Position numbers and translations under genes: made by a program. Under the pieces are notes generated by a model, which worked only from the letters and a program-made list of their open reading frames with translations, had not been told where the DNA came from and made no database searches. A stretch of DNA of 32,638 bases from contig NZ_ASGZ01000001.1 in the NCBI RefSeq assembly GCF_000495475.1, forward strand, positions 1 through 32,638. The letters are read 5' to 3'. Source of the stretch: Candidatus Halobonum tyrrellensis G22 (GTDB taxonomy: Archaea; Halobacteriota; Halobacteria; Halobacteriales; Haloferacaceae). Of the stretch, positions 18,044 through 27,806 are shown one piece after another; positions within the stretch are counted from its first letter, which is position 1, and each line of letters opens with the position of its first letter.

Positions 18044-20398
18044 GTGGACGACACCGTCGAGTGGCTGCGCTCGCGGCCGTACTACGAGGGGCAGGTCGCG
18101 GACCACCGCGTCCTCCCGGCGCGCGACGCCGCCTTCGCCGACGTGGCCCTCGAATCGCGGCTGGCGGGCGCGCTCGAAGACCGGGGGGTCGACCGCCTCT
18201 ACACCCACCAGGCGCGGGCGGTCGAGGCGGTTCGGGAGGGGGAGAACGTCGTGCTCGCCACCCGGACCGCGAGCGGCAAGAGCCTCGCGTACACGGTGCC
18301 GGCGTTCGAGAAGGCGATGGACCACGGCGGACGGACGCTGTACCTCGGCCCGCAGAACGCGCTGATCGCCGACCAAGCGGAGTCGCTGTCGGAGTTGGCA
18401 CGCGGACTGGGGTTCGGCTCGCGCGTCTCCGTCGCCCAGTACACCGGCCGGCAGAGCGACGCCGAGAAGCGCGACGTGCGCGACGCCCGGCCGACGGTGC
18501 TGTTGTCGAACCCGGACATGCTCCACTACGCGCTTTTGCCGTGGGCGTACAAACACTGGGAGTGGTTCTTCTCGTCGCTCGAACTCGTCGTGATAGACGA
18601 GGTGCACGACTACCGCGGCGTGTTCGGCAGCCACGTCGCGATGACGCTCCGCCGGCTGAACCGTATCTGCGAGCGGTACGACTCGGCGCCGCAGTTCGTC
18701 TGCTGTTCGGCCACCGTCGGCAACCCCGTCGAACACGCCGCCCGGGTGACCGCCCGGCCCGAGTCGTCGTACGCGCTCGTCGACGACGACGCCTCCGCGC
18801 GGGGCCCGCGCCACTGGCTGCTGTGGAACCCGCCGGAGTACACCGGCCGCACCGCCGAACGGCAGTCCGGGCGACGCCGCTCTAGCCACACCGAGACCAG
18901 GCGGCTGTTCTGCGACCTGGTGAGCCGGGGGTTCCAGACGCTCGCGTTCACCCGGTCCCGGCAGGGGGTCGAGCGGTACGCCAGCGACTCCGCCTCGGAC
19001 CTCCGGGAGCGCGGCGAGTTCGACCTCGCGGGGTCGATAGCGGCGTACCAGGCGTCGCTGACCCACGACCGGCGGCGCGAGATAGAGGCCGGCCTCAACG
19101 ACGGAACGGTACGCGGCGCCTGGTCGACCAGCGCGCTCGAACTCGGCGTCGACGTGGGCGGACTCGACGCGGTGCTGCTCGACGGCTACCCCGGCACGCG
19201 CATGTCGACGTTCCAGCGCGCGGGCCGCGCCGGCCGCGGCGACGACCCCGCGCTGGTGGTCCTGGTCGGCGGCGAGGACCAACTCGACCAGTACCTGATG
19301 GGCGACCCCGACGCGCTCTTCGACGGGGAGCCGGAGCGGGCGATGGTCGACCCCGAGAACGCCGAGTTGCTGCCGGACCACGTGGCGTGCGCCGCCGACG
19401 AGAACTGGCTGTCGCGCGACGACGAGCGCCACTTCGGGGCGACGTTCCCCGACGTGGTGTCGTCGCTCGTCGCGGCGGGACGGCTCGACCGCCGCGACAC
19501 CGGCGACGGCGCCCGCTGGCTGTACGACGGCGGCGGTAGCGCCCAACACTCGATGGGGCTACGGACCGTCGGCGACCGCGAGGTGGACCTGCTCGACGCG
19601 CGGTCGAACGACCGCGTCGCGTCGCTGTCGCTGTCGGACGCGCTCCGGGACGCCCACCCGGGTGCCGTCTACCACCACCAGGGGCAGAGCTACGAGGTGA
19701 CCGACCTCGACTTCGAGCGCGACGTCGCCCGCCTCCAGCCCACGTGGGCGGACTACTACACGCGCGTGCTCACCGACAAGGACGTGGTGGTGAACGACGA
19801 CCTCCGGGAGAAACCGCTCGACGCCCGCCCGGACACCGCCGTCCGGTTCGCCGACGTGACCGTGACGGAGCGGGTCACCGGGTTCGAGCGCAGGGACCGA
19901 ACGACGGGCGAGACGCTCGGCCGCGAACCGCTGGACCTGCCGGAGACCAGCCTCCGGACGCGCGCGTTCTACTACACCGTCCCCCCCGAGGTGGAGGCGG
20001 CGATGCGCACGGCGGGCGGCGAGTACGGGTTCGCCGGCGGCATCCACGCCGCCGAACACGGGAGCATCTCGCTGATGCCGCTGTCGCTGCTGTGTGACCG
20101 CGCCGACGTCGGCGGGCTGTCGACGCCGCACCACCCCCACACGGACCGGTCGACCGTGTTCGTCTACGACGGCCACCCGGGCGGCGTGGGGCTGGCGGCC
20201 GGGGCGTACGACGGGGTCGACGACCTGCTGGCGCGGACCGCACGGCTGATAGCGGGCTGTGACTGCGCCGACGGCTGTCCCGCGTGCGTCCAGTCGCCCC
20301 ACTGCGGCAACGCCAACGACCCGCTGTCGAAACCCGAGGCGGTCCGACTGCTGAACGCGCTCGCGGGGACGGACGAGCCTGTGCCGTCCGGCGAGTGA
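18044..20398 (+). CDS. Superfamily 2 helicase with C-terminal Cys cluster (Hrq1/MrfA-like)
   Basis: The 784-residue protein is a DEAD/DEAH-type helicase. It shows a Q-motif-like THQ at about 54-56, Walker A RTASGKS (74-80), DEVH (185-188), SAT (222-224), and the second RecA domain ending with QRAGRAGRG (about 391-399). The C-terminus holds the DUF1998-like zinc cluster CDCADGCPACVQSPHC (about 738-753). This set is that of the YprA/Hrq1/MrfA family, DNA helicases linked to repair of crosslinked DNA. The start is a GTG at 18044. It is divergent from ogt, which agrees with a repair role; the specific lesion is an inference from family. Confidence 0.88.
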   Translation: MDDTVEWLRSRPYYEGQVADHRVLPARDAAFADVALESRLAGALEDRGVDRLYTHQARAVEAVREGENVVLATRTASGKSLAYTVPAFEKAMDHGGRTLYLGPQNALIADQAESLSELARGLGFGSRVSVAQYTGRQSDAEKRDVRDARPTVLLSNPDMLHYALLPWAYKHWEWFFSSLELVVIDEVHDYRGVFGSHVAMTLRRLNRICERYDSAPQFVCCSATVGNPVEHAARVTARPESSYALVDDDASARGPRHWLLWNPPEYTGRTAERQSGRRRSSHTETRRLFCDLVSRGFQTLAFTRSRQGVERYASDSASDLRERGEFDLAGSIAAYQASLTHDRRREIEAGLNDGTVRGAWSTSALELGVDVGGLDAVLLDGYPGTRMSTFQRAGRAGRGDDPALVVLVGGEDQLDQYLMGDPDALFDGEPERAMVDPENAELLPDHVACAADENWLSRDDERHFGATFPDVVSSLVAAGRLDRRDTGDGARWLYDGGGSAQHSMGLRTVGDREVDLLDARSNDRVASLSLSDALRDAHPGAVYHHQGQSYEVTDLDFERDVARLQPTWADYYTRVLTDKDVVVNDDLREKPLDARPDTAVRFADVTVTERVTGFERRDRTTGETLGREPLDLPETSLRTRAFYYTVPPEVEAAMRTAGGEYGFAGGIHAAEHGSISLMPLSLLCDRADVGGLSTPHHPHTDRSTVFVYDGHPGGVGLAAGAYDGVDDLLARTARLIAGCDCADGCPACVQSPHCGNANDPLSKPEAVRLLNALAGTDEPVPSGE

Positions 20399-23954: not shown

Positions 23955-25109
23955 ATGTCACAACTCCAACTCGACAAGCTCACCAAGGTGTTCACCGACG
24001 ACGATGGCAGCGACATCGTCGCGGTCGACGGCGTATCGATCGACATCGAGGACGGGGAGTTCCTCGTCCTCGTCGGCCCCTCGGGCTGCGGGAAGTCGAC
24101 GACCCTCCGGATGGTCGCCGGGTTAGAGACGGTCACCTCCGGCGACATCCGGCTGGGCGACCGGACCATCACCGACCAGAAGGCGCAGGAACGCGACATC
24201 GCGATGGTGTTCCAGTCGTACGCGCTGTACCCCCACATGACCACCCGCGAGAACATGTCGTTCGGACTCGAGGAGTCCACCGACATGTCCACCGACGAGA
24301 TCTACGACCGCGTCGAGCAGGCGGCCGAACTGCTCGGCATCGCGGCCCTGCTCGACCGCAAGCCCACGGAGCTGTCGGGCGGGCAACAGCAGCGGGTCGC
24401 GCTCGGCCGCGCCATCGTCCGCGAACCCGAGGTGTTCCTGATGGACGAACCGCTGTCGAACCTCGACGCGAAGCTCCGGTCGAGCATGCGGACGGAGCTC
24501 CAGCGGATCCAAGAGGACCTCGACACCACGACGATGTACGTCACGCACGACCAGACGGAGGCGATGACGATGGGCGACCGCATCGCCGTGCTCAACGACG
24601 GCCGCCTCCAGCAGGTCGGCACGCCGCTGGAGTGTTACCACCGCCCGGCCAACCGGTTCGTCGGCGGCTTCATCGGCGAGCCGTCGATGAACTTCTTCGA
24701 GATGACCGTCGAGGGCGACCGACTCGTCTCCGACCGCCTGAACTACCCGCTGTCGGCCGAGACGGCCGACGCCGTCGCGGGGTCCGACCGGGTCACGCTC
24801 GGCATCCGGCCGGAGGACATCGAGATCGTCGACCGCCCGGCCGACGACCACGCCTTCGAGACGGTCGTCGACGTGGTCGAACCCCGGGGGAACGAGAACT
24901 CGGTGTACCTCATGTTCGGCGACCAGGAGACCGAGGAGAACCCCGAGACGTTCGTCGCCATCGTCAACGGGATGTCGCGCGTGGAGGCGGGCGAACCGGT
25001 CGTCGCCCACGTCCCCGAAGACGCGGTCCACCTGTTCGACGCCGACTCCGGCGACGCGCTCCGGAACCGCGTGCTCGACGACCTCGACGAGACGGAGCCG
25101 CGGGTCTGA
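23955..25109 (+). CDS. ABC importer ATPase (MsmX/UgpC type)
   Basis: The 384-residue protein powers the importer. Walker A is GPSGCGKST (41-49), Q-loop VFQSYALYPHMT (85-96), signature LSGGQQQRVALGRA (140-153), Walker B VFLMDE (160-165), D-loop NLDAKL and switch His198 (VTHDQ). A C-terminal TOBE-type regulatory domain (about 240-384) is characteristic of carbohydrate importers of the CUT1 group, where it can receive regulatory signals or be shared by several transporters. The gene closes the operon; a strong hairpin follows at 25292. Confidence 0.92.
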   Translation: MSQLQLDKLTKVFTDDDGSDIVAVDGVSIDIEDGEFLVLVGPSGCGKSTTLRMVAGLETVTSGDIRLGDRTITDQKAQERDIAMVFQSYALYPHMTTRENMSFGLEESTDMSTDEIYDRVEQAAELLGIAALLDRKPTELSGGQQQRVALGRAIVREPEVFLMDEPLSNLDAKLRSSMRTELQRIQEDLDTTTMYVTHDQTEAMTMGDRIAVLNDGRLQQVGTPLECYHRPANRFVGGFIGEPSMNFFEMTVEGDRLVSDRLNYPLSAETADAVAGSDRVTLGIRPEDIEIVDRPADDHAFETVVDVVEPRGNENSVYLMFGDQETEENPETFVAIVNGMSRVEAGEPVVAHVPEDAVHLFDADSGDALRNRVLDDLDETEPRV

Positions 25110-25571: not shown

Positions 25572-26975
25572 ATGGTTCGATACGGCGGAATAGAGGAGTT
25601 AGAGGAGGGGATCCGAGAGGCGGCCTTGGACGCGGTAGGATCCGGAGAGACGTTTCTCGGAGGTGTTCGGGCTGCCGACGCTGTTCGTTCGAAGCGACAG
25701 ACGCGCCTAGTACTCACCGATCAGCGTCTCATTGCCCTGAAGCCTACTAGCGGAGGAATAAAGGTCAGCAGTGTCGAACGGACGGCGATTTCTCACGTCG
25801 ACTATGAATCGGGTGTGTTGAGCCGGGAACTCTCTATCGTCGGTAGTGGGGGCGTCGAACGGTCGTGGAAACTCCAACGGGACGGAGCGGATGCGTTCGT
25901 CGCGGCGCTTCGAAGTGGGGAGTCTCACGCCGTGTTCGTCGGTGAGAACAACGAGCCAGTCATTTCAGAAGAAATGGGGGTCGAAGAACGGGGGCAGATT
26001 GGTCGGTCCGACAGCGACCGTCGGCCCGCTTCTCGGGCTCAATCCCATCGAACTGCCAGTGCCGAGAAGACGGAAGATCCCAGCTCCTTCGAGGAGATGC
26101 AGTTGTCGACCTTGGCCTCGCGGTTACAGGGTATGGACAACTACGAGTTCGAACAGTTCGTCGGTGACCTCTGGGAGCGTCTCGGCTGGGATACGGAAGT
26201 CTCGCAGGCGTCCGTCGACGCGGGTATCGACGTGATAGCGACAAAAGAGACGCCGTATCCGCAGAAGAAGGTGATCCAAGCCAAACGGTACAGTGAGAAC
26301 ACCACGGTCGGCGGACCCGACATCCAGCAGTACGCCAGTCTCAAGAGTCAGGTCGACGGAGCCGACTCCGTAGTGGTCGTCACGACGAGTTCCTTCACGA
26401 ACGCCGCTAGAGACCGCGCTAACGACCTCAACGTGAAGCTCGTAGACGGAATTACTCTCGCAACGATGATCGACGACCTCGATGCGTACGACTTGGTAGC
26501 TGCTTACCTCGAAGCGCCGGCGGTCGCTACCGATTCGTCCGAACCCGCGAGAACTCCCGAACCCGACGCGACCCGACGCTCCGCCGAGACCACTCGCTCC
26601 GAGCCGGTCGGCCAGCCGGAGAAACAAGTCGCCGAGGACGGGGGAGCAGTACGCTCGAACACCGCTGGAACGGATTCGGTACTCACGGACCCGGAGAACG
26701 CCCCCGAAAGCGAGGAGGTAGAAGTCGGAAACTGGCATTACGGCATCGTCGGCTGTGCTGTTCTAGCTCTCCTCGCACCCGCGGCCGGCGCGAACGGTCT
26801 CGGAGGTCTGATGATACTGATGCTTCCGCTGGTTGTCTATGCCGACGCCTACAACGTGAGTAAGAAGTCACCAGAGTGGAATCCGCGCCGGTGGCTCTAC
26901 GCGCTCGCGTCCTTCGTCTTCTTCATCGGACCACCTATCTACCTCTACAAGCGCTGGAAGAACGTGGGACTGTGA
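25572..26975 (+). CDS. PH-like domain / Mrr-type endonuclease / membrane-anchor fusion
   Basis: The 467-residue protein has three parts. Residues about 28-115 resemble a bacterial PH domain (TRLVLTDQRLIALKPTSGG, a later LSIVGSGGVERSWKL, and FVAALR). Residues about 178-315 are an Mrr-like PD-(D/E)xK nuclease: MDNYEFEQFVGDLWERLGW with E195, DAGIDVIA with D220, and VIQAKRY with Q236/K238, then QYASLKSQVDGADSVVVVTTSSFT. A Ser/Glu-rich linker leads to hydrophobic segments at about 391-427 and 442-458, so the nuclease is probably tethered to the membrane. The family includes type IV restriction of modified DNA, so defence is plausible but inferred. Third positions are less GC-rich than in neighbours, suggesting transfer. 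The ATG at 25572 is the only start before the PH part. Confidence 0.82.
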   Translation: MVRYGGIEELEEGIREAALDAVGSGETFLGGVRAADAVRSKRQTRLVLTDQRLIALKPTSGGIKVSSVERTAISHVDYESGVLSRELSIVGSGGVERSWKLQRDGADAFVAALRSGESHAVFVGENNEPVISEEMGVEERGQIGRSDSDRRPASRAQSHRTASAEKTEDPSSFEEMQLSTLASRLQGMDNYEFEQFVGDLWERLGWDTEVSQASVDAGIDVIATKETPYPQKKVIQAKRYSENTTVGGPDIQQYASLKSQVDGADSVVVVTTSSFTNAARDRANDLNVKLVDGITLATMIDDLDAYDLVAAYLEAPAVATDSSEPARTPEPDATRRSAETTRSEPVGQPEKQVAEDGGAVRSNTAGTDSVLTDPENAPESEEVEVGNWHYGIVGCAVLALLAPAAGANGLGGLMILMLPLVVYADAYNVSKKSPEWNPRRWLYALASFVFFIGPPIYLYKRWKNVGL

Positions 26976-27026: not shown

Positions 27027-27563
27027 TTACGCCTGTTTCAGCTTCGCCGCGAACCGCTCGCGAACCTTCTCCACCTTCGGCGCGGCGTGCATCTGACAGT
27101 AGGCGTCGTTGGGGTTCTTCTCGAAGTAGTCCTGGTGTTTCTCCTCCGCGCGGTAGAACGTCTCCAGCGGCTCGATTTCGGTCACCACGTCGTCGTCGTA
27201 CTCCTCGTCGAGCGCCTCGCCGTACGCCTCGACCTGCCGGCGCTGGTCGTCGTCGTGGTACAGCACGATGGAGCGGTACTGCGTCCCCACGTCGGGCCCC
27301 TGCCGGTTGAGTTGCGTCGGGTCGTGGGTGGCGAAGAACACCTCCAGGAGTTCGTCGTAGCCGACCACGCCGGAGTCGTACTCCACCTGTACCACCTCGG
27401 CGTGGCCGGTGTCGCCCGAGCAGACCTCCCGGTACGTCGGCTCCTCCGTCTCTCCGCCCGCGTAGCCGCTGGTCACCTCGCGGACGCCGTCGAGTTCCTT
27501 CATCGCCGCCTCGGTACACCAGAAACAGCCGCCGCCGAACGTCGCCCGCTCGTACTGGCTCAC
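27027..27563 (-). CDS. msrA: Peptide methionine sulfoxide reductase A
   Basis: The 178-residue protein reduces methionine-S-sulfoxide in proteins, repairing oxidative damage. The catalytic motif GGCFWC is near the start (Cys13), followed by EVTSGYAGGETEEPTYREVCSGDTGHAEVVQVEYD and, later, FFATHDPTQLNRQGPDVGTQYRS, all hallmarks of MsrA. The C-terminal NPNDAYCQMHA may carry the resolving cysteine. I chose the GTG at 27561-27563 because a CCTTATGT box lies at 27587-27594, 24-31 bases upstream; a longer form from ATG 27590 would start inside this box. It converges with the PH-Mrr gene. Confidence 0.9.
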   Translation of the reverse strand: MSQYERATFGGGCFWCTEAAMKELDGVREVTSGYAGGETEEPTYREVCSGDTGHAEVVQVEYDSGVVGYDELLEVFFATHDPTQLNRQGPDVGTQYRSIVLYHDDDQRRQVEAYGEALDEEYDDDVVTEIEPLETFYRAEEKHQDYFEKNPNDAYCQMHAAPKVEKVRERFAAKLKQA

Positions 27564-27586
27564 GGGAGAACGAAGGGGCCTGCGAG

Positions 27587-27594
27587 ACATAAGG
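27587..27594 (-). promoter_or_regulatory. TATA-like box deciding the msrA start
   Basis: On the minus strand CCTTATGT lies 24-31 bases upstream of the GTG at 27561-27563. It contains the ATG at 27588-27590, so that ATG would be part of the promoter rather than the start codon. Confidence 0.5.
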
Positions 27595-27806
27595 CTCCCG
27601 TCGGTCACCGTCGGGTACCGCGCGGCCGGCGGGACGCCGACCCTCGGCGCGACGGCGGCGACCGGTACGGGTCCGCGTCCCGATCCTACCCGTACGGCTC
27701 GAAAAAAGGCATTTGAGCGGTCGTATCGGGGGTTTAGGAAACAGCTAATACCTCACGGCGCCATCGTACGGTCGATTCTGCGGCCCGTGCCGGGAGTCAC
27801 AGACAC

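Follow-up and report, generated by a model that had tools for sequence, protein, structure and literature searches.

A predicted membrane-tethered Mrr-type nuclease with an N-terminal PH domain as a candidate guard against incoming DNA in haloarchaea

The window analysed here, the first 32,638 nucleotides of contig NZ_ASGZ01000001.1 of Candidatus Halobonum tyrrellensis G22, carries one gene whose product appears to join a PH-like domain, an Mrr-type nuclease and C-terminal membrane helices, and the question raised by the locus is what a DNA nuclease would do at the membrane. The answer favoured here, held at about even chances and largely by analogy with known systems, is that a single accessory gene here may encode a DNA nuclease anchored in the membrane as a guard against DNA coming in. 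For this product we infer the nuclease activity, the topology, the ligand of the PH domain, the target and the part played in defence.

The open reading frame was checked and runs on the forward strand from an ATG at 25,572 to a stop codon at 26,973–26,975, encoding 467 aa (the PH–Mrr–TM protein); its parts and the flanking genes are listed in Table 1. The domain order of the original prediction, namely PH, Mrr, linker and C-terminal helices, was recovered by the Pfam match to Mrr_cat, by AlphaFold models and by the predicted helices. Full-length relatives are 42–46% identical to the 467-aa protein, and among them identity is about 70% in the nuclease core, 39–49% in the PH domain and membrane module, and 12–25% in the linkers. 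Since the full-length AlphaFold model has a mean pLDDT of only 67, the placing of the domains relative to each other in that model is meaningless.

Table 1. Coordinates of the PH–Mrr–TM gene, its encoded parts and its flanking genes in the window.
Feature	Coordinates	Strand	Evidence
Left flank: sugar ABC transporter ATPase, end of a transport operon	23955..25109	+	left border of a variable junction in relatives
PH–Mrr–TM gene, 467 aa	25572..26975	+	ORF, Pfam, relatives, GC3
PH domain, residues 1-118	25572..25925	+	AlphaFold, fold matches, haloarchaeal relatives in other architectures
Disordered linker 1, residues 119-178	25926..26105	+	low pLDDT, low identity among relatives
Mrr-type PD-(D/E)xK nuclease core, residues 179-315 (E194, D220, Q236, K238)	26106..26516	+	Pfam, fold matches, invariant residues
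Acidic disordered linker 2, residues 316-386	26517..26729	+	low pLDDT, composition
C-terminal membrane module, residues 387-467, 2-3 helices	26730..26972	+	hydropathy, helices, module alignment, profile matches
Right flank: peptide methionine sulfoxide reductase MsrA	27027..27608	-	PF01625 2e-65; right border of the junction in relatives

Residues 186–300 were assigned by Pfam to Mrr_cat (PF04471; E = 2.3e-26, 92.6 bits against a curated cut-off of 21), and pLDDT in the nuclease core of the full-length model was mostly above 90. Sequence searches of the PDB, with the protein or with a profile, returned chance matches only, so fold comparison was used, matching the core to the archaeal AF1548 (Z 17.0), AspBHI (Z 13.8) and MspJI (Z 13.3), and at a lower score to the nuclease domain of Avs4 (Z 9.8). 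D220 and Q236/K238, which had been named as active-site residues, are intact and, together with E194, invariant across 17 aligned family members, a conservation that makes an active enzyme probable. In the 467-aa protein, no domain for recognising DNA was found, which leaves the choice of target unexplained and counts against a role as guard.

For the N-terminal part, the Pfam match to bPH_3 (PF14470; residues 40–114, E = 0.0032, 18.3 bits) lay below the curated cut-off of 23, and the PH claim was therefore tested through structure. The PH part was aligned alone with 13 haloarchaeal relatives before folding; a MAFFT alignment of PH-only and full-length proteins together misaligned the PH rows, and was set aside. 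The AlphaFold model of residues 1–128 (pLDDT 85.8, pTM 0.81) consists of seven strands and a C-terminal helix in the order of a PH domain, and solved PH domains, including the bacterial 3dcx and 3hsa, match it at Z 10–11 over about 100 residues. The PH fold, on which the original prediction had staked the defence idea, is thus present by both the model and the structural matches, and two relatives of this PH domain in other architectures passed the bPH_3 cut-off. The ligand of PH domains is often a protein rather than a lipid, which also weighs against the guard reading.

The proposed disordered linker agrees with pLDDT below 50 at residues 118–173 and 315–390 of the full-length model, and linker 1 is 12–23% identical between relatives. 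C-terminal membrane helices, likewise proposed beforehand, were predicted by AlphaFold at 389–432, 440–450 and 453–464, in agreement with hydrophobic windows at 383–431 and 440–460 in the hydropathy profile, giving a C-terminus of three possible helices and a basic tail. In the module alignment, D425, W436, P438, Y457 and R461 recur in relatives, and no Pfam family exceeded its cut-off over this module in the proteins scanned. The module had profile matches in 170 of 392 genomes, frequently in ORFs that are not Mrr–TM, and therefore resembles a membrane module or anchor in general use among haloarchaea, a further point against a guard. ORFs with the module pattern Y-x-D-x-R ... W-x-P ... Y-x-Y-x-R are widespread in haloarchaea, and in some genomes the pattern occurs as neighbouring repeats. 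The chromosome of Haladaptatus pallidirubidus has two stretches of about 18 kb that are nearly identical, each with a 511-aa ORF (L140:8551-10086 and L141:8400-9935) in which a family-B DNA polymerase-like part (by eye) continues in frame as a PH–Mrr–TM-type C-terminal membrane module; these ORFs look like the duplicated wreck of an interrupted gene.

In the proposed mechanism, the C-terminal helices would anchor the protein in the cytoplasmic membrane, the two long, flexible, acidic linkers would leave the Mrr-type nuclease free to move close to the inner face, and the N-terminal PH domain would dock on a membrane lipid or protein and so control the place or the time of cutting. Self and non-self would be told apart by place: the chromosome would be mostly out of reach, and viral or plasmid DNA would pass the enzyme on entry. 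That the protein may act at the envelope on entering DNA is suggested mainly by SNIPE, a membrane-bound, single-gene nuclease of E. coli that cuts phage DNA during injection, in which the nuclease is the best-conserved region, the N-termini are diversified, and homologues without the TM helix may carry N-terminal PH domains (PMC13190303, Nature 2026). The PH–Mrr–TM protein is like SNIPE in being encoded by a single gene, in having variable N-terminal parts that include PH, and in being best conserved in the nuclease; by its predicted helices it would also be membrane-bound, and it may work in a similar way. It is not homologous to SNIPE, which has an N-terminal TM helix, DUF4041 and GIY-YIG, whereas the PH–Mrr–TM protein has an Mrr-type nuclease and an anchor at the other end, and neither GIY-YIG nor DUF4041 is among its Pfam matches.

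SNIPE also bears on a different reading of the same anatomy, since removal of the anchor makes SNIPE toxic, and in its anchored state the enzyme seems to be auto-inhibited (PMC13190303). The PH–Mrr–TM protein might be an abortive-infection or stress nuclease, held inactive by its PH domain and TM helices until a membrane disturbance at virus entry or exit unleashed the cutting of all DNA, the host's included. A membrane anchor, a sensor-like PH domain and long linkers would suit such an enzyme equally, the failure to find a sequence-recognition domain is in keeping with it, PADLOC ties Mrr domains to effector roles (ZorD), and the Avs4 nuclease domain is a fold relative. However, a release route is not evident in the sequence, and no protease, antitoxin, methylase or partner gene adjoins the PH–Mrr–TM gene in the window, the window ORFs agreeing with the earlier statement that neither a methylase nor a partner lies beside it; an abortive nuclease is judged unlikely.

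Type IV-like restriction of modified DNA, as by Mrr or MspJI, with membrane attachment secondary, is less probable still, even though the protein belongs to the Mrr_cat family and AspBHI and MspJI, its closest relatives of solved structure, act on modified DNA. With Mrr/Mrr_cat enzymes (PF04471) it shares the nuclease domain and its D/QxK residues; it differs from them in the PH domain in front and the membrane module behind. MspJI, which cuts modified DNA, and AspBHI have the same nuclease fold (Z 13–14) and are soluble enzymes with a base-reading domain, whereas no modified-DNA reader of a known kind, such as SRA-like or winged-helix, was seen by Pfam or by fold in the 467-aa protein, whose N-terminus is the PH domain, and the anchor recurs in many relatives. 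Turning back to entry guards, COG4741 (T. volcanium TVN1166) was predicted to be a 'membrane-associated guardian against foreign DNA' (Kosinski et al. 2005, PMC1189080), and is similar in combining a PD-(D/E)XK nuclease with a membrane helix, in the functional idea and in having an archaeal representative; it differs in its minimal YraN-like core and N-terminal helix, and a PH domain was not described. The profile of PADLOC PDC-S02, a candidate single-gene defence, matches the Mrr region (E = 2.6e-19) only through positions 171–306 of 334, not along the whole model, with the N-terminus and membrane module of the PH–Mrr–TM protein outside the match.

As had been noticed at the outset, third-position GC of the PH–Mrr–TM gene lies below that of its neighbours (GC3 0.687 versus 0.91–0.96 in eleven other window genes), and its product is the only Mrr_cat protein found in the G22 genome. 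Relatives from the same family often have msrA close to the gene for the sugar-ABC ATPase, and the content between the two varies (superoxide dismutase-, pirin- or short-chain dehydrogenase-like genes by eye, or hypothetical genes), so that the PH–Mrr–TM gene occupies a variable junction. An MrfA-like helicase at 18044–20398 was considered as a partner and rejected, because the transport operon lies in between.

Among 392 genomes of the order, 15 carried the PH sequence, and the full PH–Mrr–TM arrangement was seen in only 4 sampled genomes, namely G22, two Halococcus (G217 and G231, the latter taken as H. thailandensis) and, on a plasmid, Haladaptatus pallidirubidus; no further full-length matches came from 393 genomes sampled across the phylum. 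Scanning of genome contigs with the single protein returned no close relatives, the same contigs queried with a three-row alignment yielded seven relatives, and no phage records were matched. Most of the remaining proteins with the PH sequence are shorter (PH alone, PH–TM, PH–TM–TPR). The Mrr–TM chassis is commoner in haloarchaea than PH–Mrr–TM, and its N-termini differ: L062 and L067 have no such part, L003 has a zinc ribbon, L063 and L064 have a TPR-like module, and others have a short basic segment, in some cases accompanied by a C-terminal extension of about 400 aa (L005, L010, L012). The domain order described as unusual is therefore rare in its full form, but Mrr–TM itself occurs in many haloarchaea, with PH as one of several N-termini. 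The PH, TPR-like and Mrr–TM parts appear to recombine, as a PH–TM–TPR protein from another genome shares, in its C-terminus, 51% identity over 119 aa with the TPR-like module of L063, and a bPH_3 gene near a contig end (L142:6531-7397) is divergent from an adjoining TPR–Mrr–TM gene; the latter was rejected as a firm PH link and taken as only a hint, being barely similar to the PH domain of the PH–Mrr–TM protein.

Gain and loss were seen most directly in Halococcus. The spacing between hisF and the DUF7550 gene is about 83–135 bases in six of eight genomes, and in the other two, G217 and G231, the site is filled by the PH–Mrr–TM gene; between cdd and udp, G224, G238 and G245 carry an Mrr–TM gene that lacks the PH part, and the remaining five genomes have no such gene there. 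G173 has an Mrr–TM copy at a third location, and no Mrr–TM protein was found in G252 and G263. Homologues thus vary between close species, where a lack of variation had been named as telling against defence, and PH–Mrr–TM and Mrr–TM genes behave as accessory single genes. Defined mobile-element ends at the Halococcus hisF site were considered and rejected, as filled and empty spacers differ in sequence and no duplication was seen by eye. Three of the four full-length copies have housekeeping neighbours rather than defence genes, which counts against the guard reading, and no classical defence island was seen around the Mrr–TM or full-length copies inspected; of the candidate single-gene defence system first proposed, the single-gene accessory behaviour held, and a defence neighbourhood did not appear. 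The Halococcus neighbours hisF, cdd and udp would suit a host housekeeping or DNA-uptake factor, that is, a nuclease at the membrane that serves the import of DNA, its recombination or the maintenance of the chromosome, but the patchy occurrence of the full-length form, the two of eight Halococcus genomes with no Mrr–TM protein and the filled or empty sites between close species make such a factor distinctly improbable.

Several family copies lie in mobile contexts. One Mrr–TM gene was found in a provirus with a tail gene, the same protein being present in an IMG/VR contig and in an archaeal genome; another lies near an integrase and a D5-type primase, and a further one near an integrase and transposases. 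The Haladaptatus plasmid copy begins 209 bp after a 1510-aa PD-(D/E)XK/SF1-helicase gene. This gene resembles the defence models MkoA and DpdJ mostly through its helicase part and was not seen beside the other full-length copies, and it was therefore rejected as a partner. A selfish or mobile-element weapon against rival elements (superinfection exclusion or plasmid incompatibility) would account for the provirus, plasmid and integrase-linked copies, but most full-length copies, including that of G22, have ordinary chromosomal neighbours and no visible element nearby, and this reading is the least probable of all.

For a membrane-anchored guard against incoming DNA, the evidence counted comprises the swapping of N-termini on a constant Mrr–TM chassis, the mobile copies, the foreign GC3, the filled and empty sites, the intact D/QxK site, the folds that include the DNA-cutting AspBHI and MspJI, and a conservation trend as in SNIPE. 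A fixed nuclease with changing N-terminal adaptors and flexible tethers fits the location-based specificity of such a guard. More tentatively, and rather less likely than not, the haloarchaeal proteins may form a modular class of entry-guard nucleases, independent of SNIPE, tethered to the membrane and based on Mrr instead of GIY-YIG. Such a class would be the archaeal counterpart of SNIPE: it would separate self from non-self by location, and its swappable N-terminus (PH, TPR-like, zinc ribbon or none) would pick the entry site or the invader. Archaeal means of stopping viruses at entry are little known; if the proposal is true, location-based defence arose more than once, from unrelated nucleases, the swappable N-terminal parts would be a ready protein set for what steers such a guard, and the Halococcus species with filled and empty sites would offer a natural comparison.

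Further arrangements were observed around the Mrr–TM family. Five Mrr–TM proteins of 700–800 aa (L005, L010, L012, L014, L018) share a conserved extension of about 400 aa that is beta-propeller-like by eye. In two genomes of one genus, 446-aa ORFs (L029, L030) combine an HtpX/M48-like membrane protease (by eye, HEFAH motif) with a C-terminal Mrr domain. In Natronococcus pandeyae, an ion-channel gene (L064:8964-9833; Ion_trans, 8e-31) lies about 110 bases after the TPR–Mrr–TM gene, on the same strand.
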